Source: Herbidospora yilanensis (GTDB lineage: Bacteria; Actinomycetota; Actinomycetes; Streptosporangiales; Streptosporangiaceae). Taken from it: 64,000 nt of DNA. The stretch's first letter is position 1; the number at the start of each line of letters is the position of its first letter. The notes below the pieces were generated by a model. It worked only from the letters and a program-made list of their open reading frames with translations, did no database searches and was not told the DNA's origin. The stretch is taken from NCBI RefSeq assembly GCF_001570565.1, contig NZ_BBXE01000022.1, positions 124,001 to 188,000 of the forward strand, given 5' to 3'. The translations under genes and the position numbers were made by a program. Shown here piece after piece: positions 34,592 through 54,798 of this stretch.

Positions 34592-34623
34592 TATCACCCA
34601 GGGCTGGTGTTAGTTGTTTCTGG
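34592..34623 (+). promoter_or_regulatory. RiPP-cluster element copy 1 (upstream of precursor 1)
   Basis: TATCAC, then 9 bases, then GTGTTAGTTGTTTCTGG. TATCAC and GTGTTA form a near inverted repeat. The same element with the same spacing and one mismatch in the long part recurs at 36223 upstream of precursor 3. It lies about 120 bp before the precursor 1 start, so it is probably an operator or activator site for the cluster. Confidence 0.6.
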
Positions 34624-34741
34624 TTGCCAGGCGCGAACATGACGAATCTAGGACATGTGACAAGCGGTAGCGGTCAGTCCAGAGGCCCGCTGCCACTCCG
34701 CCGGATCTCGGTGACGAGCCGATGCAGAAGGAGCGTGCCCC

Positions 34742-35065
34742 ATGGCCGAAAGCATCTACATTCTCGGTGACGAAGACCGTAAGAAGTTCGCCCGTCTGGT
34801 CGCCGCCGCGTGGTCGGACGGCGGCGTCAAGACCCGCTACGGCCACGAGCCCCGCGTGATGCTGGCCGAGTACGGCATCAGCTACCCCGAGGGCGTCGCC
34901 ACGCCGCCGCTGCCCGCCCGCCCCGAGGGCGAGTTCTCGGTCGAGGAGCTCGAGGTCGCGGCCGGCGCCGAGGCCGAGGGCTGCCTGGGCTCCGCCAGCT
35001 CGATCAGCACCATCGGCGGCTGCCTCGGCACCGCTTCGACCTACGGCTGCGGCTCGGTGTCGTAG
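34742..35065 (+). CDS. NHLP-leader RiPP precursor 1
   Basis: A 107-residue precursor with a long nitrile hydratase-like (NHLP) leader: AESIYILGDEDRKKFARLVA, then AAAWSDGGVKTRY, EPRVMLAEYGI and VATPPLPARPEGEF. The likely leader end is near AAGAEAEG. The core has an internal duplication, GCLGSASSISTIG followed by GCLGTASTYGCGSVS, with three Cys and many Ser/Thr. These are substrates for azole formation and dehydration by the cluster enzymes. The ATG has AAGGAG 8 bases upstream. Its stop overlaps the start of precursor 2 (TAGTG). The exact cleavage site is inferred from the Gly-Ala motif only. Confidence 0.88.
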   Translation: MAESIYILGDEDRKKFARLVAAAWSDGGVKTRYGHEPRVMLAEYGISYPEGVATPPLPARPEGEFSVEELEVAAGAEAEGCLGSASSISTIGGCLGTASTYGCGSVS

Positions 35066-35364
35066 TGGCCGAGAGCGTCTACGTCCTCGGCGACGAGGAT
35101 CGTAAGAGGTTCTCCCGGCTGGTCGCGGCCGCGTGGTCCGACGACGCGGTCAAGACCCGCTACGGGCACGAGCCCCGCGTGATGCTCGCCGAATACGGCA
35201 TCGGCTACCCCGCGGGTGTGCCCACGCCGCCGCTGCCCGTCCGTCCCGAAGGCGAATTCGAGCTGGAGGAGCTGGAGGTCGCGGCCGGCGCGCAGGAGCC
35301 GAGCTGCGTGTCCTGCATCCAGTGTGTCGGCACCGTCGCCACGCTCTACACCACCAACTCGTGA
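35065..35364 (+). CDS. NHLP-leader RiPP precursor 2
   Basis: A 99-residue paralogue of precursor 1. Its leader is nearly identical (AESVYVLGDEDRKRFSRLVA) but the core is different: after AAGAQEPS it reads CVSCIQCVGTVATLYTTNS, with three Cys clustered at the start and Thr/Ser at the end. The GTG start shares a base with the TAG stop of precursor 1, so translation is coupled and no separate ribosome-binding site is needed. A conserved leader and variable core is the usual result of precursor duplication. A strong hairpin follows at 35382, which probably keeps precursor transcripts in excess over enzyme transcripts. Confidence 0.88.
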   Translation: MAESVYVLGDEDRKRFSRLVAAAWSDDAVKTRYGHEPRVMLAEYGIGYPAGVPTPPLPVRPEGEFELEELEVAAGAQEPSCVSCIQCVGTVATLYTTNS

Positions 35365-35381
35365 CCGTCGCCGCTTGACCT

Positions 35382-35419
35382 GTCTTGGGGGCGCGGGCCC
35401 GCCTGCGCGCCCCCAAGAC
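35382..35419 (+). terminator. Terminator/attenuator after precursors 1 and 2
   Basis: Perfect 14-bp stem GTCTTGGGGGCGCG with its complement around a 10-base loop, 17 bases after the precursor 2 stop. Confidence 0.8.
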
Positions 35420-35471
35420 GTCCAGCGGAACACCCGTTGCCTTCTTCGACCCGGATTGTCATGATCCGTTG

Positions 35472-36218
35472 GTGACCCAACAGCGGACGGCCGCTCGCGC
35501 ACCCCTGGAGGTGCGGATCGGACGCGCCGCCGTTGTGGCGTTCTCGATCTTCTTGATGTCCCGCACGTACGCCCACTACCTGCAGGACCCCCCCGTCCGC
35601 GCGGCACTGGCCGTGGTCCTGGCGACGGCGGTCATCGGCCTCTACGCCACCGCGAGCTTCCGGCCCGGACGCCGGCGCAGATGGATCCTGGGCGCGATGG
35701 TGCTCCTGGCCTATCTGCCGCTGCCGATCCTGGGCGAGTGGTGGGCCGCCGCCGGGGTCTTCCTCGCGGCGATGACGCTCGTGTTCCTGCCCCGGCCCTG
35801 GGCGTTGCCCTCGTTCGCGCTGGTGGTCGTCGTGGAGGGGGGCAAGTCGCTGGCCCTCGGCGACGACCTTCCCTCGGCGGTGACGTGGATCATGACCGTG
35901 GTGATCTCGTCCATCCCGCTGGTGGCTCTGACGCGGTTCGCCGAGATGGCGCGGGTGCTCTACGAGACCAGGGCCGAGCTGGTCGCCGTCGAGGTGGCGG
36001 CGCAGCGGGCGCGGGCGATGCGGGAACTGGAGGGCATCCTCGGCAGCAGGCTCGACACGATCGCGGTACTCGGGCGCGAGATCCTCACCGGCGCCGACGG
36101 CGACGCCGAGACCCTCAAGAAGGAGCTGCGCGGCATGCTCGCCGTGGCCCGCGAAGCCCAGCGCGAGATGCGCGAGTTCGCCCACAGGGAGCAGCGGCTC
36201 ACCCGTCACGCCACATGA
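35472..36218 (+). CDS. Truncated histidine-kinase-like membrane protein
   Basis: A 248-residue protein with about five membrane helices in the first 145 residues and a C-terminal coiled helical region. The segment RAMRELEGILGSRLDTIAV aligns with the HisKA_3 box of NarL/DesK-type kinases (RELHDLLGxxLxxI), but the phospho-acceptor His is Glu187 and the protein stops before any HATPase domain. It cannot be a working kinase. It may bind or titrate the cluster kinases at 51148 and 53025, or act in immunity; both are inference. GTG 35472 is chosen because an upstream in-frame start at 35385 would begin within the terminator. Confidence 0.7.
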   Translation: MTQQRTAARAPLEVRIGRAAVVAFSIFLMSRTYAHYLQDPPVRAALAVVLATAVIGLYATASFRPGRRRRWILGAMVLLAYLPLPILGEWWAAAGVFLAAMTLVFLPRPWALPSFALVVVVEGGKSLALGDDLPSAVTWIMTVVISSIPLVALTRFAEMARVLYETRAELVAVEVAAQRARAMRELEGILGSRLDTIAVLGREILTGADGDAETLKKELRGMLAVAREAQREMREFAHREQRLTRHAT

Positions 36219-36222
36219 TGAA

Positions 36223-36254
36223 TATCACTTTTCGCCCGTGTTAGTTGGTTCTGG
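36223..36254 (+). promoter_or_regulatory. RiPP-cluster element copy 2 (upstream of precursor 3)
   Basis: TATCAC, then 9 bases, then GTGTTAGTTGGTTCTGG. Compared with the copy at 34592, the spacing is identical and 16 of 17 bases match in the long part. It lies 71 bp before the precursor 3 start, marking a second promoter that likely drives precursor 3 and the long biosynthetic operon. Confidence 0.6.
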
Positions 36255-36324
36255 CCGACCCACCACTGATCGCAAAAACTGAGTGTCACAGGCGGTCCAC
36301 TTCCCCGACCTGAGGACACAGATC

Positions 36325-36612
36325 ATGCCGGATGACCCCACGCTGCCCCACGAGCTGCGCACCCAGCTCGCCCGGTTCTTCGCCCGCGCCTGGTCGGACG
36401 AATCGATCAGAACCGACTACGCACGCGACCCACGCGCCACCCTCGCCGGAGCGGGTGTCGACTGGCCCGGAGAACTGCCCACCCCCGAACTGCCCGACCG
36501 TCCTGACCAGAGCATCGACCTCGAAAGCCTGGAGTCGTCGGCCGGCGGCGCCCTCGGCACGATCGGCACCGTGAGCTGCCCCACCGGATGTTTCTCCGGG
36601 CAGACCACCTGA
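36325..36612 (+). CDS. NHLP-leader RiPP precursor 3
   Basis: A 95-residue precursor with a divergent NHLP-type leader (ELRTQLARFFARAWSDESIR, DPRATLAGAGVDWPGELPTP) and a core after SSAGG containing LGTIGTVS and CPTGCFSGQTT. The ARAWSDE and DPR..L..GV pattern keeps it in the same family as precursors 1 and 2, although identity is low. Two Cys and several Ser/Thr are available for modification. I chose ATG 36325 because the leader helix then starts as in its homologues; a GTG at 36283 would add 14 residues. It follows the second copy of the shared upstream element. Confidence 0.82.
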   Translation: MPDDPTLPHELRTQLARFFARAWSDESIRTDYARDPRATLAGAGVDWPGELPTPELPDRPDQSIDLESLESSAGGALGTIGTVSCPTGCFSGQTT

Positions 36613-36706: not shown

Positions 36707-36988
36707 ATGACTGTAGAGACGATCGGCTGGAACACCGCTCAGCGCAGAGGATTCGGCGAACTCATCGCGCGCTCGTGGTCCGACGCCGGCCTGCGGCTGC
36801 GCTACGAACGCGAGCCCGCGGAGGTCCTCGCCGAATACGACATCCACCTCGCCGCCGGCACCAGCGCCCCGGCCCTGCCCCCGAGCCCCGGCGAACTCGT
36901 CGTCGAGACGTTCGGCAGCCCCGAGTCCGTGCCTCCGCCCTGCATGCTCAGCATCTGCTTCTGCCTGCAGCCGGACGTCGAGCGATGA
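36707..36988 (+). CDS. NHLP-leader RiPP precursor 4
   Basis: A 93-residue protein with an NHLP-type leader (NTAQRRGFGELIARSWSDAG, YEREPAEVLAEYDIHL) ending in PPPCMLSICFCLQPDVER, where three Cys lie in a hydrophobic stretch and one Ser is present. The ATG at 36707 follows GGGAGG. The TGA overlaps the ATG of the HlyD gene (ATGA), linking it to the export operon. The core is poor in Ser/Thr compared with the other precursors, so if it is modified, thiazoles from Cys are the main option. It could also be a degenerate precursor. Confidence 0.78.
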   Translation: MTVETIGWNTAQRRGFGELIARSWSDAGLRLRYEREPAEVLAEYDIHLAAGTSAPALPPSPGELVVETFGSPESVPPPCMLSICFCLQPDVER

Positions 36989-37692
36989 CCACGACCGCGG
37001 TCGAGACGTCGGGGGGCGAGCGGATCGACCAGCTCGTCTCCACCGTCCGGACCAAGGCCTGGCTCGCCGCCGCCGCGCTGGTCCTGGTGGCGGGGTGCGG
37101 GGCCGGCTGGGTCTGGTGGGGCCAGGTCCGCGACGTGGTCGTGGCCCGGGGCGTGCTGGTGGCGGGGGACGGGCCCGTCCCGGTCGCCGCGCCCGTGCCG
37201 GGCAGCCTGGCCGAGGTGCTCGTCCGCGCGGGTCAGGAGGTGACCCCGGCGACGCCGCTGGCGGTCATCCACGGCGGCGACGGCGCCCGCCGCGTCGTCA
37301 CCGGCACGGCGAGCGGGCGGGTGCTGCGCACCGTCGCGCCGGGCACCACCGTGGGAGCCGGTGCGACCGTCGCGGTCGTCGACCCGGCCGCCGGGTCGCT
37401 TCGGGCCCTGCTCGTCGTCGGCCCCGAACGTGTCGGCTCGCTGGCCGGCGGCCAGGCCGTCACCGTGCCCGGCGCCGGTCCGGGCCGGGTCAGCGCCGTC
37501 GACGTCTATCCCGTCTCCGGTGAGCAGCTCCGCCCCCTGTACGGCGACGCCCTCCAACCCGGCTACCTGGTGACCGTCGACCTCGACCGCCCGGCCTGGC
37601 CCGGCGCGACCCTCACCCCCGTGGCCGGGGAGATCACCGTCGACGTCGTCCGTCCCGTCGACGCCCTGTTCGGCGGGGGGAGCCGTGGCTGA
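36985..37692 (+). CDS. NHLM secretion HlyD-like protein
   Basis: A 235-residue membrane-fusion-type protein with one N-terminal membrane helix (AWLAAAALVLVAGCGAGWVW) and a biotinyl-lipoyl-like beta domain (VAAPVPGSLAEVLVRAGQEV, TGTASGRVLRTVAPG). It corresponds to the secretion protein of NHLM bacteriocin systems and is short because the coiled-coil hairpin is missing, as expected in a Gram-positive host. It overlaps precursor 4 upstream and the C39 transporter downstream by 4 and 8 bases. It should assist the two ABC proteins in exporting the processed peptides. Confidence 0.85.
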   Translation: MTTTAVETSGGERIDQLVSTVRTKAWLAAAALVLVAGCGAGWVWWGQVRDVVVARGVLVAGDGPVPVAAPVPGSLAEVLVRAGQEVTPATPLAVIHGGDGARRVVTGTASGRVLRTVAPGTTVGAGATVAVVDPAAGSLRALLVVGPERVGSLAGGQAVTVPGAGPGRVSAVDVYPVSGEQLRPLYGDALQPGYLVTVDLDRPAWPGATLTPVAGEITVDVVRPVDALFGGGSRG

Positions 37693-39850
37693 GACGGCGA
37701 CCAGGCACAAGCCCGTACGCACCGAGCGGCGTCCCCAGATGGAGGACGCGGACTGCGGCCCGGCCTGCCTGAGCATGATCTTCGCCTTCCACGGCCTGCG
37801 GGTCCCGGTGCACGAGATCAGGGAGAGCTGCGGCGTCGGCCGCGACGGCCTGTCGGGCGCGGGGATCAAGAAGGCGGCCGAGAAGTACGGCTTCGACATC
37901 GGGGCCTGGCGGGTGGACGCCGACGAGCTGGAGACCTTCAAGGTGCCCGCGATGATCTTCGTGGACCACCGGCACTACGTGGTGCTCGAAGGTCTGCGCA
38001 AGCGGTGGGCGTACGTCAACGACCCGGCCGTCGGCCGGATCCGGCTGACCAGGGACGACTTCAGGAAGCGGTTCAGCGGGGTCGTGCTGGTGCCCAGGCC
38101 GGGCGAGGGCTTCACCCCCGGCGGGAAGCGGTATCCGCTGGCCCGGTCGTTGCTGGCGAAGGTCCGCCCCTACCTCTCGACGCTGGTCGCGGTGGCCGTC
38201 ATGGCGGTCGTGCTGGCGCTGCCCGCGGTGGCGACGTCGCTGCTCACCCGGTTGCTGCTCGGTGAGGTGCTGATCGCCGGCAACACGGCGTGGTCGGCGC
38301 CGGTGCTGCTCGGGCTGCTGGCCGGCGCCGCGTTCACCCTGGTCGGCGTGTGGACCCAGCAGCGCATGCTCGGCGCGGTGCAGACCGCGATGGCGGCCGA
38401 CCTGTCGGGCCGGCACATGTGGCGGCTGCTGCGGCTGCCCGGCGAATTCTTCCACCGGCGGATGACCGGCGGCATCGTCACCAAGACCTCCTTCGGCGCG
38501 GGGCTCGCCCTGCTGCTGTCCGACCGGGCCGCCACGGCGGTCGCGGCCGTGCTGACGATGGTGCTGCACATCTCCGTCCTGTTCGCCTTCCACCCGGCGT
38601 TCGCGCTGGTCGCCGGGGTGTTGGCGGCGGTCAACGTGATCGCGATGCGGCTGGTCTCCAGCCGGGCCGCGCCGCACCAGCAGCGGCTCATCTTCGACGA
38701 GCACCGCCGCGACGCGATGGCGTTCAACGGCGTCTCGATGGCCGAGTCGCTCAAGGCCGACGGCGCCGAGGGCTGGTTCTTCGCCAAATGGGCCGGCCTG
38801 TCGGCCAAGGCCCTGTCGGCCACCCAGGACCTGATGCGGGTCACGCAGGCGCTCCTGGTGGTGCCGGCCGCGCTCGGCTCGCTCGCCGGGGCGGCGATGG
38901 TGATCACCGGCGCGGTGCTGATGGCCGGCGGCGAGGTCACGATGGAGACCGTGATCGCCGCCCAGCTCCTCGTCGGCGCATTCCTCGTGCCGGTGACCGC
39001 GCTGGTCGGGCTGGGGGCCGAGGCGCAGATCGCGGTCGCCCAGACGAGCATGCTCGACGACGCCCTCAGCGTGCCGCCCGACCCGCAGTACGCCGCCCTC
39101 CCGCAGGCCCCCGGCAGACCCGGCGGGCTGCGCGGCGCGGTCGAGTTCGACGAGGTCACCTTCGGCTACGACCACCAGCACGGGCCGGTCATCCAGGGCC
39201 TGTCGTTCCGGATCGAGCCCGGCCGCCGGGTCGCGATCGTGGGCCGCACCGGCAGCGGCAAATCCACCGTCGCCCGCCTGCTCACCGGGGCCGTCCGGCC
39301 GTGGTCGGGGGAGATCCTCCTCGACGGCGTGCCAAGGGAGGGCTGGCCCCGGGAGGCACTCTCCACCTCCATCGGGTACGTCGAGCAGAACCTCCAGGTG
39401 TTCGAGGGCACCGTGGCCGACAATCTGACGCTCTGGGATCCGACCGTGCCCGCGTACCGGCTGAACCGGGCGCTGGCCGACGCCGACCTGGCCGGAGTCG
39501 TGCACCGCAGGGGCGGTCTGGACGGCGGCTGGATCCAGGAGCGCGGCCGGAACCTGTCCGGCGGCGAGCGGCAGCGGCTGGAGATCGCCCGCGCGCTCGC
39601 GTTGTCGCCGTCGGTGCTGGTGCTCGACGAGGCCACCAGCGCGCTCGACGCCGAGACCGAGGCGCTGGTCGACGCGAACGTGAAGGCCAGGGGGTGTACC
39701 AGCGTCGTCATCGCGCACCGCCTCAGCACCGTGCGCGACAGCGACCTGATCCTCGTGCTCGACCGGGGGAGGGTCGTGCAGCGCGGCACCCACCCGGAGC
39801 TCATCGCCGTCCCCGGCCACTACCGCGCGCTCGTCGAGGAAGCGTCATGA
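37685..39850 (+). CDS. NHLM ABC transporter with C39 peptidase domain
   Basis: A 721-residue bacteriocin-type ABC exporter. The N-terminal C39 peptidase (residues about 15-140) has catalytic Cys24 in QMEDADCGPACLSM, His in DHRHYVVLEG and Asp in NDPAVG, so it should cut the leader at a double-Gly-like site. A six-helix membrane domain follows. The ATPase has Walker A GRTGSGKST, signature LSGGERQRLEIARAL and Walker B VLVLDEATSALD. The GTG start overlaps the HlyD gene. The substrates are probably the NHLP precursors encoded nearby, cleaved near their Gly-Ala or Gly-Gly motifs. Confidence 0.93.
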   Translation: MAETATRHKPVRTERRPQMEDADCGPACLSMIFAFHGLRVPVHEIRESCGVGRDGLSGAGIKKAAEKYGFDIGAWRVDADELETFKVPAMIFVDHRHYVVLEGLRKRWAYVNDPAVGRIRLTRDDFRKRFSGVVLVPRPGEGFTPGGKRYPLARSLLAKVRPYLSTLVAVAVMAVVLALPAVATSLLTRLLLGEVLIAGNTAWSAPVLLGLLAGAAFTLVGVWTQQRMLGAVQTAMAADLSGRHMWRLLRLPGEFFHRRMTGGIVTKTSFGAGLALLLSDRAATAVAAVLTMVLHISVLFAFHPAFALVAGVLAAVNVIAMRLVSSRAAPHQQRLIFDEHRRDAMAFNGVSMAESLKADGAEGWFFAKWAGLSAKALSATQDLMRVTQALLVVPAALGSLAGAAMVITGAVLMAGGEVTMETVIAAQLLVGAFLVPVTALVGLGAEAQIAVAQTSMLDDALSVPPDPQYAALPQAPGRPGGLRGAVEFDEVTFGYDHQHGPVIQGLSFRIEPGRRVAIVGRTGSGKSTVARLLTGAVRPWSGEILLDGVPREGWPREALSTSIGYVEQNLQVFEGTVADNLTLWDPTVPAYRLNRALADADLAGVVHRRGGLDGGWIQERGRNLSGGERQRLEIARALALSPSVLVLDEATSALDAETEALVDANVKARGCTSVVIAHRLSTVRDSDLILVLDRGRVVQRGTHPELIAVPGHYRALVEEAS

Positions 39851-42375
39851 ACGGATACCCCGTCAGCGAGATCGAGCTGATCGACCCCTACGCCGTCTGG
39901 CGTGTGGTCAGCGGCTCCGTGGACGTCCTGTTGTCGCCCGTCGACGGCCAGGGTCCCCGCCACCGGGTCATGAGGGTGGAGAGCGGCCAGCTCATGCACG
40001 GTTTCGCGGCCACCGACATGCCCGGCGGCTACACCGTCCTGGCGGCGCCCGCGGAGGGCACATCGGTCCGCCGCGTGCGCCGCGACCCCGACGTGGTCTC
40101 CTCCTGGGTCCGCCGCCTCAACGTCCCCGGCGCCGAAGGACGGCCCAGCGACCGGGAGCTGCGCGAACTCCACCGGGGCGCGCTGACGCAGGTGCTCCTG
40201 CTGGCCGAGGCCGAGGACGCCGACCGCGACAACTGGCGAGCCGCCCGGGTGCGGGACACCGGCGACACCCTGGCGCGTTCCTTCGCCGACATCGCGGTCG
40301 CGGCCGGGGCCAGGCCTCCCTCCGACAACCCGCGCACCGAGGCCGGCCACGCCACCGAGGTGGTGAAGGCGCTGGCCGCGCACTGCGGGTTCACCGCGCG
40401 CGACTTCGGCCCCGGCGCCGGCGACCCGCTCACCGCCGCGCTCGACGCGTCCCGCGTCCGGCACCGCCGGGTCACCCTGGAAGGCCGCTGGTGGCGCGAC
40501 GCCACCGTCCCGATGATCGCCTTCACCCGCGACGGGGACCGGCCGGTGGCGCTGCTGCCGCGCGGCGGCGGCTACCGGCTCGCCGACCCGTCGAAGGGCG
40601 TGCGCCGGGTGGACGCCGAGGTCGCCGCCGCGCTCGCCCCCGGCGCCTGGCAGCTCTACCCGCCGCTCGACGAGGGCATCGGCTCACCGCTCGGCCTGCT
40701 CAGATTCGGGCTGCGCGGCGCGGGCCGGGAACTCGCCTGGCTGCTGGCCGCCGGGGGCGGCGCGGCCGTGCTCGCGCTCGGCGTGCCGATGCTCACCTTC
40801 GTGCTGCTGCGGACGGCGCAGAACCCCGCCGACCGGCCCGCGATGATCTGGACCGCGCTCCTCATCGCGGGCGCGGTCATCGCCTCCGCCATGCTCCTCG
40901 CCGTGCGCAACGCGGTGCTCGTGCGAGTGCAGGGCCGCCTCCAGGAACGGCTCGAACCGGCGGTCTGGAGCCATCTCATCTCGCTCGACCTGCCGTTCTA
41001 CGCCCAATACAGCTCGGGCGACCTGGTGCAGCGCGCCAACGCCGTGGCCGACATGCGCAAGTCGCTCGGCGAGGCGGCCGTCAACTCGCTGCTCGGCGGC
41101 GTCTTCTCGCTGCTCGGCCTGCTGATCCTGGTGACCGTCGACTGGCGGCTGGCGCTGGCCGCGCTCGGCGGGGTGCTGGTCCTGCTCGCCCTGCTGGCCG
41201 CGCTCGCCGTCCGCCAGCAGCGGCACGAACTGGTCATGCACGAGCAGTACGGCAAGGTCTACTCGCTTCTGTACTCCTGCCTCAGCGCGATCGACAAGAT
41301 CCATGTGGCGGGCCGGGAGTCGCAGGTCTTCGGACTGTGGTCGCGGCTGTTCGCCACCCAGCAGAAGGCCGCCGCCGCGTCGCGCCGCCAGGCCGCCCTG
41401 TCGGCCGCCGTGGGCGCGGCGGCCCAGCCGACGCTGCTGCTCGTGCTGGCCGTCACCGGGCTCTCGTTCGGCGTGCCCGCCGCCTCCTTCGTGATCGCCG
41501 CCGTGGCGCTGGGCCAGTTCGTGCTCGCGCTCGGGCAGGTGAACCGCGCGGTCGAGGCGGCCTTCGCGCTGCTGCCGAGGTTCGCCCGGCTGAAGCCGCT
41601 GCTGGAGCGGGCCCCCGAGACGCCTCCTGGCGCGAAGGACCCGGGCGAGCTGACCGGCCTGGTGCGGCTCAGCGGCGTCTCCTTCGCCTACCCCGGCACC
41701 GCCCAGCGGATCGTCGAGGACGTCTCCATGGTGTTCCGTCCCGGCGAGTTCGTCGCGGTCACCGGTCCCTCCGGCGCGGGCAAGTCGACGATCGTACGGC
41801 TGCTCCTCGGCTTCGAGCCGCCGCGCACGGGCCAGGTGCTCTACGACGGCGGCGACCTGCGCGACCTCGACCTGCGCCGGGTCCGTGCCCAGGTGGGCGT
41901 GGTGATGCAGCAGGCCCGCGTGCTCCGGGGCTCGATCCTGGAGAACATCATCGGCGACGTGCCGGGGGCCAAGGAGGAGGACGCCTGGCGGGCCGCCCGC
42001 CTGGCCGACCTCGACGGCGACATCGCCGTGTTGCCGATGGGCATGCACACCGTCGTCAGCGAGGACAACGCCACCTTCTCCGGCGGCCAGCTCCAGCGCC
42101 TGCTCATCGCCAGGGCGCTGGTGAAACGCCCTCGCATCCTCATCCTCGACGAGGCCACCAGCGCCCTCGACAACGTCACCCAGGCGCTGGTCAGCCGGAG
42201 GATCGCCGAGCTTGACATCACCAGGATCGTGATCGCGCACCGGCTGAGCACCATCAGGTCGGCGGATCGGATCTACGTACTCGACCAGGGCAGGGTCGTC
42301 GCCAACGGCTCCTTCGACGGGCTCATGGACGCCAACGAGCTCTTCGCCCGCATGGTCCGCCGACAGGAGGTCTGA
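39847..42375 (+). CDS. Second NHLM ABC transporter (no peptidase)
   Basis: An 842-residue ABC protein. The first 330 residues are a soluble region without C39 Cys/His motifs, characteristic of the second NHLM transporter subunit. Six membrane helices and an ATPase follow, with Walker A GPSGAGKST, signature FSGGQLQRLLIARAL and Walker B ILILDEATSALD. It likely forms a heterodimer with the product at 37685, as known for NHLM systems. Its ATG overlaps the previous stop (ATGA), and the LanM ATG begins 2 bases after its stop. Confidence 0.92.
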   Translation: MNGYPVSEIELIDPYAVWRVVSGSVDVLLSPVDGQGPRHRVMRVESGQLMHGFAATDMPGGYTVLAAPAEGTSVRRVRRDPDVVSSWVRRLNVPGAEGRPSDRELRELHRGALTQVLLLAEAEDADRDNWRAARVRDTGDTLARSFADIAVAAGARPPSDNPRTEAGHATEVVKALAAHCGFTARDFGPGAGDPLTAALDASRVRHRRVTLEGRWWRDATVPMIAFTRDGDRPVALLPRGGGYRLADPSKGVRRVDAEVAAALAPGAWQLYPPLDEGIGSPLGLLRFGLRGAGRELAWLLAAGGGAAVLALGVPMLTFVLLRTAQNPADRPAMIWTALLIAGAVIASAMLLAVRNAVLVRVQGRLQERLEPAVWSHLISLDLPFYAQYSSGDLVQRANAVADMRKSLGEAAVNSLLGGVFSLLGLLILVTVDWRLALAALGGVLVLLALLAALAVRQQRHELVMHEQYGKVYSLLYSCLSAIDKIHVAGRESQVFGLWSRLFATQQKAAAASRRQAALSAAVGAAAQPTLLLVLAVTGLSFGVPAASFVIAAVALGQFVLALGQVNRAVEAAFALLPRFARLKPLLERAPETPPGAKDPGELTGLVRLSGVSFAYPGTAQRIVEDVSMVFRPGEFVAVTGPSGAGKSTIVRLLLGFEPPRTGQVLYDGGDLRDLDLRRVRAQVGVVMQQARVLRGSILENIIGDVPGAKEEDAWRAARLADLDGDIAVLPMGMHTVVSEDNATFSGGQLQRLLIARALVKRPRILILDEATSALDNVTQALVSRRIAELDITRIVIAHRLSTIRSADRIYVLDQGRVVANGSFDGLMDANELFARMVRRQEV

Positions 42376-42376
42376 G

Positions 42377-45548: not shown

Positions 45549-47783
45549 ATGGACGCCAGACCGGGATTCCGCCGCCACTTCCGCGTGGAGGTCGTCGACG
45601 GAGAAGGGGTCTTCCTGATCTCCGAGCGCGACCTGCACCTGCTCACCGGCCGCTCGATAGAGGTGGTCGCGGGCCTGCTCGACGGCAAGCACGACATCGA
45701 CGACATCCTGACCGCCGTCGAGGCCGACCTGCCGCCGGAGCACGTCTTCTACGTGCTGCACCAGCTCAGGTCGCGGAACCTGCTGGTCGACGTGGCCGAC
45801 GAGCTCGACCGGGGCACGGCCGCCTACTGGGAGATGGCCGGTCTGGAGGGTGACGCGGCGGCCGAGGGCGTCCGGACGGGCGCCGCCCGGGTGGTGACCG
45901 TGGGCGACGTGCCGGGCGAGGAGCTGAAGCGGCTGCTCGCGGGCGAGGGCGTCGGCGTGGTGGACGAGGGCGGGCTGACCGTCGTGCTCACCGACGACTA
46001 CCTGCGCCCGGAACTGGCCGAGATCAACAGGGAGCACCTCGCCGCCGGCGAGCCGTGGCTGCTGGCCCGGCCCGTCGGCCCCTTCCTGTGGCTCGGGCCC
46101 GTCTTCCAGCCGGGGGAGACCGGCTGCTGGCGGTGCCTGACGCAGCGGATGGAGGGGCACCGGCAGACGATGTCGTACCTGGAGAACCGGTTGCGCAGCG
46201 CCCGGCCGCTGGCCCTGCCGGTCGCCGACCTGCCGCTGACCCGCGACACGGGCCTGCGCCTGGTCACCGCCGAGGTGCTCAAGTGGCTGGCGGGCGCGCG
46301 CAGCGAGCAGCAGCACGACGTGATCACCTTCGACACCCAGCGGCTCGGCACCGTCCGGCACCGGCTGACCCGCCGCCCGCAGTGTCCTGAGTGCGGCGAC
46401 CCCGCGATCATGTCGCAGTCGCGCCCGATCGAACTGGCCTCCCGCCCCAAGGGCTTCACCGCCGACGGCGGACACCGCTCCCACCACCCCGAAGAGACCC
46501 TGGAGAAGTACGAGCACCTGATCAGCCCCATCAGCGGCGTGGTCAAGGAGCTGACCCGGGTCGAGACCGACGTCCCGTTCGTGAAGACCTACGTCGCCGG
46601 CCACAACTTCTCCCGGCAGATCCACAACCTCGACGGGCTGCGGGCCGGCCTGCGCAGCCAGAGCGCCGGCAAGGGCACCACCGACCTCCAGGCCAGGGTC
46701 AGCGCCATGTGCGAGGCGATGGAACGCTATTCGGGCATCTTCCAGGGCGACGAGCCGCGCCGCGACGCGACCTACCGCGAACTGGGCGAGGCGGCCATCC
46801 ACCCGAACGCGGCCGCGCTCTACAGCCCCGCGCAATACGCCGACCGTCACGAGCTCGGCAGGGTCTCCAACTACGACTTCGTCAACGACCCCCTCGACGA
46901 GGACGCCGTCATGGAGTGGTCGCCGCTCTGGTCGCTGACCGAGCGGCGGCACCGGTACCTGCCGACCAGCTACCTGTACTACTACCACCACGACCGGCAT
47001 CACACCGGCCCGGTCTACGCGTGGGCCGACTCCAACGGCAACGCCGCCGGCTCCTCACTGGAGGACGCGGTGCTCCAGGGCTTCATGGAGCTCGTCGAAC
47101 GCGACGCCGTCGGCATCTGGTGGTACAACCGCGTGCGGCGTCCCGCCTTCGACCTCGACAGCTTCCGCGACCCGTGGATGACCGCCTACCAGGAGGTGTA
47201 CGCCGGCCTCGGCCGCCGCATGCACGTCCTCGACGTGACCAACGACCTCGGCATCCCGGTCGCCGCCGCGGTGAGCTGGCGGCCCGACGCGCCGACCGAG
47301 GACGTTCTCATGGCCTTCGGCGCCCACTTCGACCCGCGTATCGCCGTCCAGCGGGCGCTGGCCGAGATGAACCAGTTCATCCCCGCCGTCATCGACGTCG
47401 CCCCCGACGGCCGCACCCGCTACCGCTTCCACGAGGGCGACCAGACCAGGTGGTGGCGGGAGGCCCGCATAGAGGACCACCCCTATCTGACCCCCGAGGG
47501 AACCGTCGCCGCCTCGGCGTACGCCCCCCGCGACACCGGAGACCTGCTCGACGACGTCGCCGAGGCCCGCAGGGTGGTGGAGGAGCGCGGCATGGAGATG
47601 CTCGTGCTCGACCAGACCCGGCCGGACATCGGGCTGCCCGTGGTCAAGGTCGTGGTGCCCGGACTGCGGCACTTCTGGCGTCGCATGGGGGCCGGCCGCC
47701 TCTACGACGTGCCCGTCCGGCTCGGCTGGCTCGCCGAGCCCACCCCGGAGGAGCAGATGAACCCCATCACGATGTTCCTGTGA
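45549..47783 (+). CDS. TOMM leader-binding / YcaO cyclodehydratase fusion
   Basis: A 744-residue protein that makes thiazoline/oxazoline rings from Cys, Ser and Thr. The N-terminal 320 residues form the leader-binding ocin-ThiF-like part with a zinc site from two CxxC pairs, Cys193/Cys196 (GCWRC) and Cys279/Cys282 (CPECG). The YcaO domain runs from about residue 340 and has the ATP/Mg motifs ARVSAMCEAMERYSG and QGFMELVERDAVGIWWYN. The C-terminus ends in NPITMFL instead of a clear PxPxP. It starts 10 bases after LanM and overlaps SagB by 4 bases. It should recognise the NHLP leaders and act with SagB. Confidence 0.93.
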   Translation: MDARPGFRRHFRVEVVDGEGVFLISERDLHLLTGRSIEVVAGLLDGKHDIDDILTAVEADLPPEHVFYVLHQLRSRNLLVDVADELDRGTAAYWEMAGLEGDAAAEGVRTGAARVVTVGDVPGEELKRLLAGEGVGVVDEGGLTVVLTDDYLRPELAEINREHLAAGEPWLLARPVGPFLWLGPVFQPGETGCWRCLTQRMEGHRQTMSYLENRLRSARPLALPVADLPLTRDTGLRLVTAEVLKWLAGARSEQQHDVITFDTQRLGTVRHRLTRRPQCPECGDPAIMSQSRPIELASRPKGFTADGGHRSHHPEETLEKYEHLISPISGVVKELTRVETDVPFVKTYVAGHNFSRQIHNLDGLRAGLRSQSAGKGTTDLQARVSAMCEAMERYSGIFQGDEPRRDATYRELGEAAIHPNAAALYSPAQYADRHELGRVSNYDFVNDPLDEDAVMEWSPLWSLTERRHRYLPTSYLYYYHHDRHHTGPVYAWADSNGNAAGSSLEDAVLQGFMELVERDAVGIWWYNRVRRPAFDLDSFRDPWMTAYQEVYAGLGRRMHVLDVTNDLGIPVAAAVSWRPDAPTEDVLMAFGAHFDPRIAVQRALAEMNQFIPAVIDVAPDGRTRYRFHEGDQTRWWREARIEDHPYLTPEGTVAASAYAPRDTGDLLDDVAEARRVVEERGMEMLVLDQTRPDIGLPVVKVVVPGLRHFWRRMGAGRLYDVPVRLGWLAEPTPEEQMNPITMFL

Positions 47784-49191: not shown

Positions 49192-49476
49192 TTGGCCGAG
49201 AGCATCTACATCCTCGGAGACGAGGATCGCAGGAAGTTCGCCCGCCTGATCGCGGCCGCGTGGGACGACGGGGAGCTCCGCAACCGCTATGAGACCGAGC
49301 CCAGGCTCGTGCTGAGTCAGTACGGCATCGTCTATCCCAAGGGCGTGCCGACCCCGCCGCTGCCCGAGAAGCCCGAGGGCGAGTTCGACATCGCCAACCT
49401 CGACACGGCCGGTTCGGGCGCCGCGACGGTCAGTTCCGTCACCCTTTCCACCTTCATCGCCGGGGGTGAGACATGA
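49192..49476 (+). CDS. NHLP-leader RiPP precursor 5, no Cys in core
   Basis: A 94-residue precursor with a leader very close to precursors 1 and 2 (AESIYILGDEDRRKFARLIA, VPTPPLPEKPEGEF) and a core after GSGA that reads ATVSSVTLSTFIAGGET. The core has no Cys, so it cannot form thiazoles or lanthionines; only oxazole-type rings or dehydroamino acids from its Ser/Thr are possible. The TTG start at 49192 is fixed by GAGGAG 5 bases upstream. Its TGA overlaps the ATG of the ABC ATPase (ATGA), so this precursor is embedded in the operon between the enzymes and the exporter. Confidence 0.86.
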   Translation: MAESIYILGDEDRRKFARLIAAAWDDGELRNRYETEPRLVLSQYGIVYPKGVPTPPLPEKPEGEFDIANLDTAGSGAATVSSVTLSTFIAGGET

Positions 49477-50369
49477 CCGAGACCGTGATCGAGGTCGAGG
49501 ATCTCCGCAAGCGTTACGGCGCCTACACCGCCGTCGACGGGATCTCCTTCGACGTACAGAAGGGCGAGGTGTTCGCCCTGCTCGGCACCAACGGGGCCGG
49601 GAAGACCACCACGATCGAGATCCTGGAGGGTTACCTGCGGCCCTCCGGCGGCAGCGCGCGGGTGTTCGGCCACGACCCCGCCGACCGCGGCCCGCTGCGG
49701 TCCCGAGTCGGTCTCGTCCTGCAGGACTCGGGCCTGATCGGCGAGTTGTCGGCCGCCGAGACGGTCACGGCCTGGCGGCGCTTCACCTCCGACGCGCGTT
49801 CGGTGGCCGAGGCGCTGGAACTGGTCGGGCTCACCGGCCAGGCCAGGACCCGGGTCAAGCAGATGTCCGGTGGCGAGCGGCGCAAACTCGACATCGCCCT
49901 GGCCACGCTCGGCCACCCCGAACTCCTGTTCCTGGACGAACCCACGACCGGCCTCGACCCCGAGGCCCGCCGGCGCATCCGCGATCTGGTCAAAGACCTG
50001 GCCGACCAGGGGACGACGGTGCTGCTGACCACCCACTACCTCGAAGAGGCGCAGGATCTGGCCGCCCGGGTGGCGATCATGGACAAGGGCAGGATCGTCG
50101 TCCACGGCACGATGGCCGAGGTGCTCGGCCGGGGTTCCGGCCGGGTCGCCTTCGACGTGCCCGCCGGCACGAGCGTCGAGGGCCTGCCGGTGGGTGCGGC
50201 CGACGTGCTCACCGTGACGGGCGGCCGGTGCGTGATCCTCACGGCCGAGCCCGAGGCGGTCGCGCACGCGGTGCTCGGCTGGGCCGCCGCCGGCGGAGTG
50301 CGGATCGGCGGCCTCGACGTCCGCCAGGCGACCCTTGAGGAGATCTTCATGGAGGTGGCCGAGGCATGA
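49473..50369 (+). CDS. ABC transporter ATP-binding protein
   Basis: A 298-residue ATPase with Walker A GTNGAGKTTT, signature MSGGERRKLDIALATL, Walker B LLFLDEPTTGLDPEARR and H-loop TTHYLEEA. It belongs to the drug/bacitracin-type exporter group and pairs with the permease that starts in its stop codon. Its place after a precursor and before a two-component system suggests producer immunity or export of the mature peptide. The C-terminal 80 residues form the extra domain usual in DrrA-type proteins. Confidence 0.92.
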   Translation: MTETVIEVEDLRKRYGAYTAVDGISFDVQKGEVFALLGTNGAGKTTTIEILEGYLRPSGGSARVFGHDPADRGPLRSRVGLVLQDSGLIGELSAAETVTAWRRFTSDARSVAEALELVGLTGQARTRVKQMSGGERRKLDIALATLGHPELLFLDEPTTGLDPEARRRIRDLVKDLADQGTTVLLTTHYLEEAQDLAARVAIMDKGRIVVHGTMAEVLGRGSGRVAFDVPAGTSVEGLPVGAADVLTVTGGRCVILTAEPEAVAHAVLGWAAAGGVRIGGLDVRQATLEEIFMEVAEA

Positions 50370-51169
50370 CCACCCACACGCTCTCCCACTTCCGGCTCAC
50401 GCTGAAGCTGTTCTGGCGCACCCCCGTGTCGGTCGGCGTCGCCCTGGGCTTCCCGATCCTGTTCGCCGCCTTCCTCCCGTCGACCATCCCCGACGGGGAG
50501 CGCGGCGGCACGCCCGTCCACGTCGCCGTGATCGTCGGCCTGATCGTGATGGGGGCCGGGATCCTCGGCTTCATGACGCTGGTGGAGTCGTTCGTCCTGA
50601 AGCGGCAGGCGCTGATCCTCAAGCGGCTGCGCGGCACCGAGCTCCCCGAACTGGCCATCTTCGGCGGCGAGATCCTGACCATCGTGTCGATCGGGCTGTT
50701 CCAGGTCGTGGCCATCGTCGCGGTGGCGAACGCGGTCCACGGCATCGCGCTGCCGGCCAACCCGCTCCTGCTCGCGGTCACGATGGTGCTGGCGCTGGCG
50801 GTGTTCGCCGCCATGGCGATCGCGGTGAGCGGCCGGATCCCGGCGCAGGGCTCCACCATCGTGGTCAGCCTGCCGTTCCTGATGCTCACCATCGGCCTGT
50901 CCGGGTTCGTCTACCCCGTCTCGGCCTTTCCCGACTGGCTCCGGATCGCCTCCTCCTTCCTGCCGTTCACGCGGGTCGCCGAGGGGGTGAGCACCGCCTA
51001 CCTGGGGCGCGACCACGTCGGCCACGCCGGTTCCGCGGTGCCGCCGGAGGTCGGGGTGCTGGAGGGATTCGCCGTGATGTGGCCGGCCTGGCTGGTCCTC
51101 GCCGCCTGGCTCGTCCTGTCGCTGCTCGTCGCGAAGAGGTGGTTCAAGTGGGAGCCCCGGAGAGGCTGA
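50366..51169 (+). CDS. ABC-2 type permease
   Basis: A 267-residue membrane protein with six predicted helices and the ABC-2 pattern (LSGFVYPVSAFPDWLRIAS-like loop before the last helix). It overlaps the ATPase by 4 bases (ATGA). Together they form a DrrAB-like exporter for the cluster. Its 3' end overlaps the kinase start by 22 bases. Confidence 0.9.
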   Translation: MTTHTLSHFRLTLKLFWRTPVSVGVALGFPILFAAFLPSTIPDGERGGTPVHVAVIVGLIVMGAGILGFMTLVESFVLKRQALILKRLRGTELPELAIFGGEILTIVSIGLFQVVAIVAVANAVHGIALPANPLLLAVTMVLALAVFAAMAIAVSGRIPAQGSTIVVSLPFLMLTIGLSGFVYPVSAFPDWLRIASSFLPFTRVAEGVSTAYLGRDHVGHAGSAVPPEVGVLEGFAVMWPAWLVLAAWLVLSLLVAKRWFKWEPRRG

Positions 51170-52323
51170 CGGGCGTGGGGCCGGCCACCGTCCGGCTCGC
51201 ACGCATCGGCGCGGCCGTGTTCTCCGTCGGCATGGCGGCCTTCGCCGCCGTGCCGCTGCTGGAGGCGCTCGGCCGGTTCCCGGGCGCCCGGGGGGCCGTC
51301 GCGGTGTTGCTGATCACCGGGCTGACCGGCTGCTATCTGTGGCTCGGCGTCCGGGCCGTGCTCCACCGCAGCGCCCGGCGGGATCTGTTCGTGCTGGCCA
51401 CGATGACGGTGCTGGCCGTCGCAATGCCGTTCGCGGCCGGTTACTCGTGGCTGAGCATCGGGTTCATGCTTCCGTTCGCGTACGCGATCACGCTGCGGGG
51501 CTGGCGGGCCTGGACGGGCTTCTTCGCCGCCCACGTGCTGAACGCGGTCCTCTCGATCGGCCACGACGTGAACTGGGTGCTCTTCAGCTCGTTGCAGAAC
51601 ACCCTGACGGCGGGCGCGCTGGCCGGCCTGACGATCTTCGCGACGCTGCTCGGCGAACTCCAGCGCACCCGGGAGGAACTGGCCCGGCTCGCCATCACCG
51701 AGGAGCGGCTCAGGTTCGCCCGCGAACTGCACGACGTGCTCGGCCACAACCTGTCGGTCATCGCCATGCGCACCGAACTGTCGATGCGGATCCCCGCGAG
51801 CCAGGTCAAGCGGCTGCACGGCGAACTGGCCGAGATCCACGACATCGCCCGGCGCTCGCTCCACGACGTGCGCGCAGTGGTCAAGGGCTACCGCGAGATG
51901 TCGCTGGAACGGGAACTGAGCGGCGTGCGCAAGGTCCTGGAGACGGCGGGCGTGCGCTGCGACTTCGCCGACCTGCCCGCCACCCTCTCCCCGGACGTGC
52001 GGGTGGCCCTGGCGTGGGCGGTCCGGGAAGCGGCCACCAACCTGCTGCGGCACAGCGACGCCACCGTCTGCCTGCTCCACGTCGACACCGAGGGCGACCG
52101 CGTCCTCGTCACCGTCGCGAACGACGGCGTACGCGAGAACGACGCCGTGAAGTCACGGGACAACGTCGGCGGCAGCGGCCTGGCCGGTCTCGACGAACGA
52201 CTCACCCAGGTCGGCGGAAGCTGCGGACGCCACATCGAAGACGGCTGGTTCACCCTCTCTCTGGACGTTCCCGGCCGCCCGATGGCGGCCACTCTCACCT
52301 CTGCCACAGGAGACCGGAAATGA
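51148..52323 (+). CDS. Sensor histidine kinase 1 (NarL/DesK type)
   Basis: A 391-residue kinase with five to six membrane helices (residues 15-165), a HisKA_3 box with the phospho-acceptor His in RELHDVLGHNLSVIAM, and a HATPase with AVREAATNLLRHSDA and GSGLAGLDERL. GTG 51148 is inside the permease gene; GTG 51175 is an alternative. Its stop overlaps the start of response regulator 1, forming a pair that probably senses the peptide or cell-envelope stress and controls the RiPP operon or exporter. Confidence 0.88.
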   Translation: MGAPERLTGVGPATVRLARIGAAVFSVGMAAFAAVPLLEALGRFPGARGAVAVLLITGLTGCYLWLGVRAVLHRSARRDLFVLATMTVLAVAMPFAAGYSWLSIGFMLPFAYAITLRGWRAWTGFFAAHVLNAVLSIGHDVNWVLFSSLQNTLTAGALAGLTIFATLLGELQRTREELARLAITEERLRFARELHDVLGHNLSVIAMRTELSMRIPASQVKRLHGELAEIHDIARRSLHDVRAVVKGYREMSLERELSGVRKVLETAGVRCDFADLPATLSPDVRVALAWAVREAATNLLRHSDATVCLLHVDTEGDRVLVTVANDGVRENDAVKSRDNVGGSGLAGLDERLTQVGGSCGRHIEDGWFTLSLDVPGRPMAATLTSATGDRK

Positions 52324-52958
52324 TCAGAGTTCTTATCGCTGAGGACCACGACCTCATCAGAGGCGCCCTGATCGCCCTCCTGTCGGAGGAGCGGGACATC
52401 CGCGTCATCGAGGAGGTGTCGCGGGGCGACGAGATCCTCCCGGCCGTCGTCGGCAGCAGGCCCGACGTGGCCCTCCTCGACATCGGCCTGCCCGGCATCG
52501 ACGGCCTGGAGGCGGCCGGCCTCATCAGGGAGCTGGAGCAGCCCCCGCCGGTGCTGATCCTCACCAGCGTCGGCACGCCGGGCAACTTCGACCGCGCGAT
52601 GGCCGCCGGCGTCAAGGGCTTCCTGGTCAAGGACGCCCCCGCCCACCGTCTCACCGACGCCATCCGCGCCGTCGCGAGGGGTGAACGGTACATCGACATG
52701 GACCTCGCCGACGACGGCGGCGAGACCGAAACCAACACCAACCCGCTGACCGCACGGGAGATCAGCGTCCTGTCGGCGCTGGCCGCCGGCCAGGGCGGCA
52801 ACGATCTGCGGGGCAGCCTCGGACTGTCGGCCCACACGATCCGCAACTACCTGGCCGCCGCCCGGCTGAAGACGGGCGCCCGTACGGATGAGGAAGCGGT
52901 GCGTATCGCCCGCGTCAACGGCTGGTTAACGGACAGTTCGATCGACGCCAACGGTTGA
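52320..52958 (+). CDS. Response regulator 1 (NarL family)
   Basis: A 212-residue regulator. The receiver domain has the acidic pair in LIAEDHDLIRG, phospho-acceptor Asp in VALLDIGLPGIDG and Lys in GFLVKDAP. The C-terminal LuxR-type HTH is LTAREISVLSALAAG and AHTIRNYLAAARLKTGAR. It overlaps kinase 1 by 4 bases. It is a candidate for binding the TATCAC-N9-GTGTTA element upstream of precursors 1 and 3. Confidence 0.92.
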   Translation: MIRVLIAEDHDLIRGALIALLSEERDIRVIEEVSRGDEILPAVVGSRPDVALLDIGLPGIDGLEAAGLIRELEQPPPVLILTSVGTPGNFDRAMAAGVKGFLVKDAPAHRLTDAIRAVARGERYIDMDLADDGGETETNTNPLTAREISVLSALAAGQGGNDLRGSLGLSAHTIRNYLAAARLKTGARTDEEAVRIARVNGWLTDSSIDANG

Positions 52959-53024
52959 TCGCGGTCGCCGGAAGCGTCACGATCAGTACGAAAGTTGACG
53001 CCTGGGACGTTTGCGGAGACCCTC

Positions 53025-54173
53025 GTGGCTCACGAAACCGAAGCGCAGGTCAGATGGTTGTCCACGGGCGTCGTCGCGGTGACGGGCGCGTTGTGGGCAC
53101 TCACCCCGCTCGCGTTCCTGATCGTCGGCCACGTCGAGCAGGCGGCAGTGTCCGGTGTGCTCCTGGCCGGCCTGCTGGCGGTCTACACCCGCGTCGTGGC
53201 GGGCCACATAGCGGGCAGCGGCCCGGGTCCCCGCGGCCTGCGGACCTTCGCCCTGTTCGCCGTGGTCGTCTACGGCTCGTTCCCGATCCTGGGCGGCGTC
53301 TGGATCTACACACCGCTGATCGTGGGCACCGCCGGGCTCCTCCTGCTTCCGTTCCGCATGGCGGTCGCCGTCCTGGTCGTGGTGGCCGTGGCCGAGTTCC
53401 CGCTCACCCTGGCGCTGCGCACCGGCCTGCCGACGGAGGGGTTGCAGAACAGCGCCGGAGTGCTGGTCGCCGCCGTCGTGGCGGCGGGCATCGTCCACTA
53501 CGCGCGGTTCGTGCGGGAGTTGCGGGAGATCCGGGCGACACTGGCCGAGATGGCCGTCGACCAGGATCGCATCCGCATGGCCGGGGAACTGCACGACCTC
53601 CTGGGCCAGACCCTGGCCTCGATCAGCCTCAAGACCGAGATCGCCCTGGCGATGGTCGACCGGGACAGAGGCCGGGCGGTGGAGGAGATCAAGGCGACGA
53701 TCGCCATAGCGGGCGAGGCGCGGGCCGAGGTCGGCGACGTGGTCGCGGCCAGGCGCTCCCTGAGCGTCGGCGCCGAACTGTCCTCGGCCGTCGCGCTCCT
53801 GGAACTGGCCGGCGCGACCTGCGACCTGCGGCTGGGCATCAGCGAGATAGACGAGGAGACGGGTGACACACTCGGCTGGATCGTCCGGGAGACCGCGACG
53901 AACATCGTCCGCCACAGCGACGCCCGTTCCTGCCTGATAGAACTCGGCCGCGCCGACGGCCGCATCCTGCTGCTGGTACGCAACGACGGCGCCCGGCGCG
54001 GAGGTCCGGGGCGCGGAACGGGATTGGCGGGTCTCAGGCAACGGGTGGACCGGCTCGGCGGGGAGCTGACCGCGGGGGAGACCGAAGAAGGCGGATTCGA
54101 GGTGCGGGTGTGGTTGCCCGCCGTGCACGACCAGGAGAGAGTGATCAGCATTGATTCGTGTCCTGCTGGCTGA
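53025..54173 (+). CDS. Sensor histidine kinase 2 (NarL/DesK type)
   Basis: A 382-residue kinase with about six membrane helices (residues 15-165), a His-box MAGELHDLLGQTLASISL and HATPase motifs ETATNIVRHSDA and GTGLAGLRQRV. It is paralogous to kinase 1 in layout. GTG 53025 is preferred because GGAG lies 7-8 bases upstream; a TTG at 52995 would add 10 residues. It overlaps response regulator 2 by 23 bases. The truncated kinase-like protein at 35472 resembles its membrane and helical part. Confidence 0.87.
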   Translation: MAHETEAQVRWLSTGVVAVTGALWALTPLAFLIVGHVEQAAVSGVLLAGLLAVYTRVVAGHIAGSGPGPRGLRTFALFAVVVYGSFPILGGVWIYTPLIVGTAGLLLLPFRMAVAVLVVVAVAEFPLTLALRTGLPTEGLQNSAGVLVAAVVAAGIVHYARFVRELREIRATLAEMAVDQDRIRMAGELHDLLGQTLASISLKTEIALAMVDRDRGRAVEEIKATIAIAGEARAEVGDVVAARRSLSVGAELSSAVALLELAGATCDLRLGISEIDEETGDTLGWIVRETATNIVRHSDARSCLIELGRADGRILLLVRNDGARRGGPGRGTGLAGLRQRVDRLGGELTAGETEEGGFEVRVWLPAVHDQERVISIDSCPAG

Positions 54174-54798
54174 AGACCACGGCGTCGTCCGAGGCGCGCT
54201 CACCGTGCTGCTGAACCTGACCGACGACATCGAGGTGGTCGCGGAGGCCGACCGGGGCGACCGGGTCGTGGCCAGGGCCCTGGCGGCCCTGCCGGATGTC
54301 GCGGTCCTGGACATCGAGATGCCCGGCGTCGACGGCATCGAGGCCACCAGCCGCCTGCGCCGCGCCCTCCCGGCGTGCCGCGTGCTGATCCTGACCGCCC
54401 TGGCCCAGGTGACGCTGCTGAAGAAGGCGATGGACGCCGGGGCGAGCGGCTTCCTGCTGAAAGACGCCCCGACCGAGCGCCTGGCCGAGAGCATCCGGCG
54501 CATCGCGGCCGGCGAACGGGTGATCGACGCCTCTCTGGCGGTGGCCGCGATGACCGCGACGTCGTCGTTGCTGACCGACCGCGAGTCCGACGTGCTCAAC
54601 CTGGTCGGGCTGGGGGCGACGACGGGCGAGATCGCGGCGGAACTGCACCTGTCGGCGGCGACGGTGCGGAACTACATCTCCAACATCATCACCAAGACGG
54701 GGGCCAGGAACCGGACGGACGCAGTGCGGATCGCGGTGGACTCGGGCTGGATCGAACGGCCACGTCCGAACCCGGCGGCTCCGGCGGCCCGCCGCTGA
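54151..54798 (+). CDS. Response regulator 2 (NarL family)
   Basis: A 215-residue regulator with receiver motifs LLAEDHGVVRG, VAVLDIEMPGVDG and GFLLKDAP, and a LuxR-type HTH (LTDRESDVLNLVGLG, SAATVRNYISNIITKTGARN). The TTG start at 54151 lies inside the end of kinase 2. It closes the plus-strand RiPP region; its stop abuts the converging GAP1-like gene with no gap. A second kinase/regulator pair in tandem suggests separate sensing of inducer and of immunity signal. Confidence 0.9.
   Translation: MIRVLLAEDHGVVRGALTVLLNLTDDIEVVAEADRGDRVVARALAALPDVAVLDIEMPGVDGIEATSRLRRALPACRVLILTALAQVTLLKKAMDAGASGFLLKDAPTERLAESIRRIAAGERVIDASLAVAAMTATSSLLTDRESDVLNLVGLGATTGEIAAELHLSAATVRNYISNIITKTGARNRTDAVRIAVDSGWIERPRPNPAAPAARR

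Follow-up and report, generated by a model that had tools for sequence, protein, structure and literature searches.

A multi-precursor peptide cluster of Herbidospora couples azole-forming enzymes to a LanM-type protein without cyclase zinc ligands and is probably of the dehydrazole type

The DNA considered here (the window) is a 64,000-nucleotide stretch of contig C22 in the 7.85 Mb genome of Herbidospora yilanensis. By its open reading frames and family searches, 18 genes, all on the + strand, fill positions 34742-54798 and form a cluster for ribosomally synthesised and post-translationally modified peptides (RiPPs), in which five precursors are encoded with a LanM-type protein, a YcaO fusion and a SagB-family dehydrogenase. 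The genes are collinear and are listed by window position; counts of loci in the list refer to 13 aligned loci described further on.

34742..35065, + strand: precursor 1 (group G1); TIGR04351 61.7 bits, below the cut-off of 65; core ..GCLGSASSISTIGGCLGTASTYGCGSVS; ortholog at this position in 13/13 loci
35065..35364, + strand: precursor 2 (G2); TIGR04351 54.1 bits; GTG start overlapping the stop of precursor 1; core ..SCVSCIQCVGTVATLYTTNS
35385..36218, + strand: orfX, truncated sensor-kinase relative; blastp to HK1 E 4e-12, to HK2 E 1e-7
36325..36612, + strand: precursor 3 (G3); leader family match; core with invariant TIGTVSCPTGC
36707..36988, + strand: precursor 4 (G4); TIGR04351 65.1 bits; core PPPCMLSICFC.., AAG/SAG motif missing ahead of the core
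36985..37692, + strand: HlyD-like secretion protein; weak TIGR03794 match, 35.4 bits against a cut-off of 156.2
37685..39850, + strand: NHLM transporter 1 with C39 peptidase domain (PF03412); TIGR03796 725.6 bits, cut-off 853.3
39847..42375, + strand: NHLM transporter 2; TIGR03797 675 bits, cut-off 709.4
42377..45538, + strand: LanM-type dehydratase, cyclase half without zinc ligands (LanMbC-like); TIGR03897 332.4 bits, cut-off 304
45549..47783, + strand: leader-binding domain/YcaO cyclodehydratase fusion; TIGR03882, TIGR03604, PF02624
47780..49087, + strand: SagB-family azoline dehydrogenase; TIGR03605 164 bits, cut-off 78.4; ThcOx, Nitroreductase
49192..49476, + strand: precursor 5 (G5), hypervariable position; TTG start; TIGR04351 62.4 bits; core ..GAATVSSVTLSTFIAGGET
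49473..51169, + strand: ABC-2 ATPase and permease pair; family matches
51139..52958, + strand: sensor kinase HK1 and LuxR-type response regulator RR1; family matches
52995..54798, + strand: sensor kinase HK2 and LuxR-type response regulator RR2; family matches

Open reading frames and family models recovered, on the + strand, every gene that a preliminary description of this DNA had named. Its five precursors with related leaders and differing cores correspond to five TIGR04351 matches in a whole-genome search, all of them in the cluster, and no orphan precursors were found elsewhere in the host genome with this model at E 0.01. The LanM, YcaO fusion and SagB are likewise present, with TIGR03897 and TIGR03605 above cut-off and TIGR03882 and TIGR03604 matched. 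TIGR03796 and TIGR03797 are the best models for the two transporters, yet both scores fall below cut-off, so these are more properly called NHLM-like. Precursors 3 and 5 are each preceded by a gap of ~105 bases. Seventeen genes match families other than LanB and orfX resembles sensor kinases; a LanB-like split dehydratase is not found among the 18 genes of 34742-54798, the whole genome not having been searched for LanB. No radical SAM epimerase, methyltransferase or S8 peptidase was recognised among the 18.

A family search with the LanM at E 1e-150 among 341 genomes (68 genera) found it in 15 genomes belonging to 5 genera. One locus per LanM-bearing genome was compared (the window, L029-L039, L041, L068 and L069), and the shared order is upstream precursors, orfX, precursors, HlyD, NHLM1, NHLM2, LanM, YcaO fusion, SagB, downstream precursor(s) and regulators, except that the orfX match of L041 lies upstream of precursor 1. 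The preliminary description had proposed a neighbourhood comparison for LanM, YcaO and NHLP (nitrile hydratase-like leader peptide) genes; it now shows the gene set recurring in every one of these LanM-carrying genomes, and because the same genes stand in the same order in 14 further genomes, a chance association is excluded. The number of precursors ranges from four (L030, L035, L038, L039, L041) to seven (L033). The ABC-2 pair is not intact in 2/15 loci, being absent in L031 and a remnant in L038, and the sequences of L041, L068 and L069 stop short of the last regulators. Since the genes immediately preceding precursor 1 were matched in Herbidospora loci only, the cluster most likely starts at precursor 1. 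Within the genus, 6/7 genomes carry the YcaO fusion at >=73% identity and the seventh has a 49% relative only; the host genome holds a single YcaO fusion at E 1e-50. Across the class, a LanM relative (E 1e-30) occurs in 10/394 genomes. The YcaO fusion lies alongside it in the host genome, G275 and G315, and has no match in six other LanM loci (L044-L049, 20 kb each); the tenth genome (G340, a 7.5 kb contig) was left out of this comparison.

The leaders of the five precursors are NHLP-like. Their TIGR04351 scores span 30.5-65.1 bits, the cut-off of 65 being reached by precursor 4 alone, and the general NHLP model TIGR03793 gives <=23.5 bits against a cut-off of 50.9 for four of them and does not list precursor 4, so a nitrile hydratase-like leader above the TIGR03793 cut-off, the criterion for a proteusin or NHLP RiPP, was not found. 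A leader profile collected 65 precursors in 13 loci, of which 64 fall into six positional groups; one extra L033 precursor was excluded from this sorting. Mean pairwise identities of leader and core are 79% and 46% in G1, 77% and 47% in G2, 71% and 76% in G3, 65% and 37% in G4, 75% and 24% in G5, and 78% and 46% in G6. In G3 the block TIGTVSCPTGC is identical in 13/13 loci and in 2/2 held-out loci, and 9/11 of its codons vary synonymously among the 13. Cleavage of precursor 3 after GG would give an unmodified core, ALGTIGTVSCPTGCFSGQTT, with a computed mass of 1899.87 Da. In G4, by eye count, the AAG/SAG before the core is missing in 12/13 loci (L036 has SAG and L030 has GG), and CFC is found in 10/13. 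Tandem downstream precursors in L069 (16902-17671) have leaders identical at 72/75 residues and different cores, which probably reflects a recent duplication with core replacement.

The preliminary description had assigned the cluster to the class II lanthipeptides. Membership of the LanM synthetase family holds, TIGR03897 being above cut-off, and the DUF4135 domain is clear (PF13575, 269.7 bits); the LanC half is weak in sequence, LANC_like being matched over 725-868 only. Thirteen close and eight distant LanMs were aligned, the second LanM of the host genome (contig C13) serving solely as a distant control, and two loci were added afterwards to give 15. Among the 13 close LanMs, 12 have Ala and 1 has Asp where the first zinc Cys (WC) would stand, and the second Cys is retained but never followed by His. 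Neither WC nor CHG occurs in any of the 15 loci. The eight distant LanMs have WC in 7 and CHG in 6, with CCG in 1 more. The FSHG-type His is missing from 13/13 close LanMs but is less telling, because 4/8 distant LanMs also lack it. One distant LanM, in L047 (G285), is likewise without WC and CHG; no YcaO fusion match was found in its 20 kb.

The zinc-binding lanthionine cyclase site that characterises class II lanthipeptides is thus absent from the 15 loci, and lanthionine rings are unexpected because two of the ligand positions are lost throughout. A true hybrid lanthipeptide, in which the LanM-type enzyme dehydrates Ser/Thr and forms lanthionine with Cys spared by the YcaO, was dropped as the first-choice reading after this comparison and is now very improbable. 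It would accord with the TIGR03897 score, with a LanC-like fold apparently retained in the structure model, with Cys in four of the five window cores, and with the classification by Walker et al. of a six-precursor H. mongoliensis cluster as class II lanthipeptide (PMC7268733, available text). Besides the zinc positions, the confinement of the LANC_like match to 725-868 and the Cys-free precursor 5 of the window argue against it. Class III enzymes include zinc-independent cyclases (PMC10676384, available text), for which reason the loss does not strictly exclude rings. The modelled LanC-like fold leaves the odds of the readings unchanged.

Dipeptides were counted in 40 distinct cores, with G4 left out. 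Ser immediately precedes Thr/Cys 48 times and follows it 4 times, where 32.5 were expected for each; Gly precedes Ser, Thr or Cys 120 times (68.4 expected) and Thr precedes them 13 times (55.1 expected). For 23 of these cores, taken from seven loci, the counts of Ser before and after Thr/Cys are 29 and 3. The deficit of Ser after Thr/Cys recurs in the window set of five cores, precursor 4 included (0 vs 3.9 expected, p 0.007), and in eight held-out cores (3 vs 8.1 expected, p 0.015). The core of nostatin A has Ser before Thr/Cys 4 times and after it once, with neither excess nor deficit significant. Judged from sequence, the Ser bias is compatible with the pattern that azoles at Thr/Cys and dehydroalanine (Dha) at the preceding Ser would require.

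Directly established are the gene set, its conservation and the zinc-ligand loss in the cyclase half. The cluster is very likely a multi-precursor cluster of the dehydrazole type (azole-containing proteusins), making azole/Dha peptides without lanthionine. The NHLP-like leaders would bind to the docking domain fused to the YcaO, and the YcaO would convert selected Cys, Thr and Ser, mostly after Gly or Ser, to azolines, which SagB would oxidise to azoles. The LanM-type enzyme would then phosphorylate and eliminate Ser directly before an azole, so that Dha-azole units would form in place of lanthionine; in precursor 3 the residue expected to become Dha is the Ser preceding Cys. Leaders would be cut near the AAG/SAGG motif by the C39 peptidase of transporter 1 and the products exported by the transporters; precursor 4, mostly without AAG/SAGG, may be handled differently. 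Because one shared family of NHLP-like precursors is encoded together with both azole enzymes and a LanM-type dehydratase, the combined product of the preliminary description remains likely, but its class II lanthipeptide part does not stand.

Two characterised dehydrazole products were found in the literature covered, in the parts of the papers available. Pei et al. reconstituted carnazolamide, encoded by the cca cluster of Chryseobacterium carnipullorum and stated to have no lanthionine rings, and used the name LanMbC for DUF4135 proteins whose cyclase is zinc-less and which are encoded next to a YcaO (PMC10676384). The available text counts ~50 such clusters, mainly in Proteobacteria and Actinobacteria, one of them multi-precursor, and cites an earlier biosynthetic gene cluster (BGC) having YcaO and LanM together; Herbidospora, Nonomuraea, Sphaerisporangium and Streptosporang- are unnamed in its main text. 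Several features of a dehydrazole pathway are found in the window: DUF4135, a zinc-less fused cyclase, YcaO with azoline dehydrogenase, an NHLP-like leader (TIGR04351; TIGR03793 below cut-off) and a core rich in Ser/Thr/Cys. In domain architecture the window cluster resembles cca, sharing an NHLP leader, YcaO with dehydrogenase, a zinc-less cyclase joined to a DUF4135 dehydratase, and putative Ser-before-azole sites. Unlike cca, which has one precursor, a radical SAM epimerase, a methyltransferase and an S8 peptidase, it has five precursors, C39/NHLM export and kinase/regulator pairs.

Nostatin A, isolated with Dha/dehydrobutyrine (Dhb)-azole units, is encoded by the nst cluster of Nostoc, and the available text of the paper mentions a sactionine bridge and does not contain the word lanthionine (PMC11583998). 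Its cluster shares the NHLP leader, cyclodehydratase, oxidase and LanM-like protein, and the SSASTASS stretch of its core is similar to SASSIST in precursor 1; an epimerase, a C-methyltransferase, the sactionine bridge and a single precursor set it apart. Goadsporin, as described in the available part of PMC5303826, likewise has a cyclodehydratase and dehydrogenase, and its Dha needs an azole at the next residue, but it uses a LanB-like split dehydratase, a 30-residue leader, N-acetylation and one structural gene. The earlier claim that no LanM-YcaO-NHLP pathway had been characterised is contradicted by carnazolamide and nostatin A. An architecture already characterised had been named there as grounds for rejection, and these pathways supply part of it. 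The gene set is confirmed as observed, its class is already known, and lanthionine formation is unlikely.

Related clusters had been seen before. Walker et al. (2020) reported a class II BGC from Herbidospora mongoliensis that encodes six different precursors (PMC7268733); the available text counts it as a class II lanthipeptide and makes no mention of YcaO for it. L033, from H. mongoliensis, carries seven precursor genes that encode six distinct cores, so that BGC is very probably an ortholog of the window cluster and L033 very probably the same locus, an identity inferred from these counts. The NHLP/Nif11 families of Haft et al. (2010) share conserved leaders, hypervariable cores, several precursors and export genes; in the available text their NHLPs adjoin either a cyclodehydratase fusion or a LanM, and an Azospirillum case with LanM and an unfused docking protein is left undecided (PMC2887384).

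Several points weigh against the dehydrazole assignment. Neither in the window cores (6 vs 3.9 expected, p 0.17) nor in the eight held-out cores (11 vs 8.0 expected, p 0.14) does the excess of Ser before Thr/Cys reach significance. The counted cores are related to one another, and the same Ser pattern could arise if the YcaO prefers a small residue ahead of the azole. Window precursor 3 has just one Ser followed by S/T/C and precursor 5 contains no Cys. Overall the structure model is of poor quality (mean pLDDT, the predicted local distance difference test, 41.2); it is better over about 735-1006, where the predicted fold resembles class I to IV LanC enzymes, and Foldseek found no match with E <=0.001 and listed no LanC protein in its 50 rows. 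Finally, the DxH motif of the LanM is DLW in 15/15 loci, so its activity may be altered. A catalytically dead or regulatory LanM-type protein, leaving plain azole peptides as products, would also be in keeping with deviations at further conserved columns (191 and 526, for example) and with the existence of loci that combine related precursors, a YcaO fusion and kinase/regulator genes but have no LanM. It is nevertheless improbable: by alignment most kinase and elimination residues of the dehydratase are retained, identity is 81-85% to 11 orthologs and 75% in G315, and LanMbC is reported to be divergent but active (PMC10676384, available text).

The precursors might also be processed unequally, some receiving azoles only and precursor 4 perhaps keeping its leader and being regulatory, so that no single product class would result. 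The missing AAG/SAG and different Cys pattern of precursor 4 and the Cys-free precursor 5 speak for this, the single leader family and the single YcaO fusion of the host genome against it; we regard it as possible but doubtful, and it overlaps the dehydrazole assignment, the two not being mutually exclusive. A further, tentative proposal, to which we give a similarly low chance, is a fixed-plus-variable multi-peptide system with one enzyme set. Precursor 3, with its core block constant across five genera, would have a constant role, as a signal for the cluster kinases or as the constant partner in a two-peptide antibiotic; precursor 5 and duplicates would vary their cores as weapons, and precursor 4 would retain its leader and act intracellularly.

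OrfX is conserved beside the precursors in the alignment of 13 loci. It has no ATPase domain, and its phospho-acceptor His is replaced by Glu in 12/13 loci, being kept in L041; at the thresholds used it had no family match, bar a sub-cut-off Ycf66_N match. The two kinase/regulator pairs and this His-less kinase relative probably control the cluster, and the ABC-2 pair may serve self-protection. Three - strand genes adjoin the cluster at 54799-59436, one of them Double-GTPase-like with DO-GTPase1 and 2 just under cut-off, and the first of the trio was matched next to the cluster in L031, L032, L033 and L037.

Horizontal scrambling was considered and rejected: the tree built from five enzymes, concatenated, places the window among Herbidospora, and descent inside the genus is therefore retained for the enzymes. 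The precursor-1 core of the window looks nearer to those of Acrocarpospora and Sphaerisporangium than to those of the remaining Herbidospora. A YcaO fusion also occurs in LanM-less loci with related precursors (L086-L088, L090, L091, L043 and L089, the L089 precursor being known by family search alone; G359 was left out of the comparison), which suggests that the LanM may have been added later to an older module. Three loci in other genomes of the genus (L042, L043, L090) have a related YcaO fusion and kinase/regulator genes with no LanM match, and L043 and L090 additionally carry SagB and a precursor ending SAKWTYCG. Four genomes of another genus (L086-L089) have a distant precursor, YcaO fusion, kinase and regulator, with neither LanM nor SagB matched; this arrangement is possibly an older form of the module.

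The claim of a new hybrid lanthipeptide class is withdrawn, and the cluster is placed with the young dehydrazoles. No publication characterising it was recognised in the open-licence PubMed Central literature, supplements excluded, and the invariant precursor 3 block, the motif-less precursor 4 and the conserved His-less sensor-kinase relative, in which its remaining interest lies, are apparently unreported. The constant precursor 3 core amid hypervariable siblings calls for a separate explanation. To the dehydrazoles the cluster would add an actinomycete pathway with five natural substrates, one azole/Dha enzyme set and core variation across 15 genomes. Because it combines these substrates and this natural variation with no recognised epimerase or methyltransferase, the division of Ser, Thr and Cys between YcaO and dehydratase would be directly testable.

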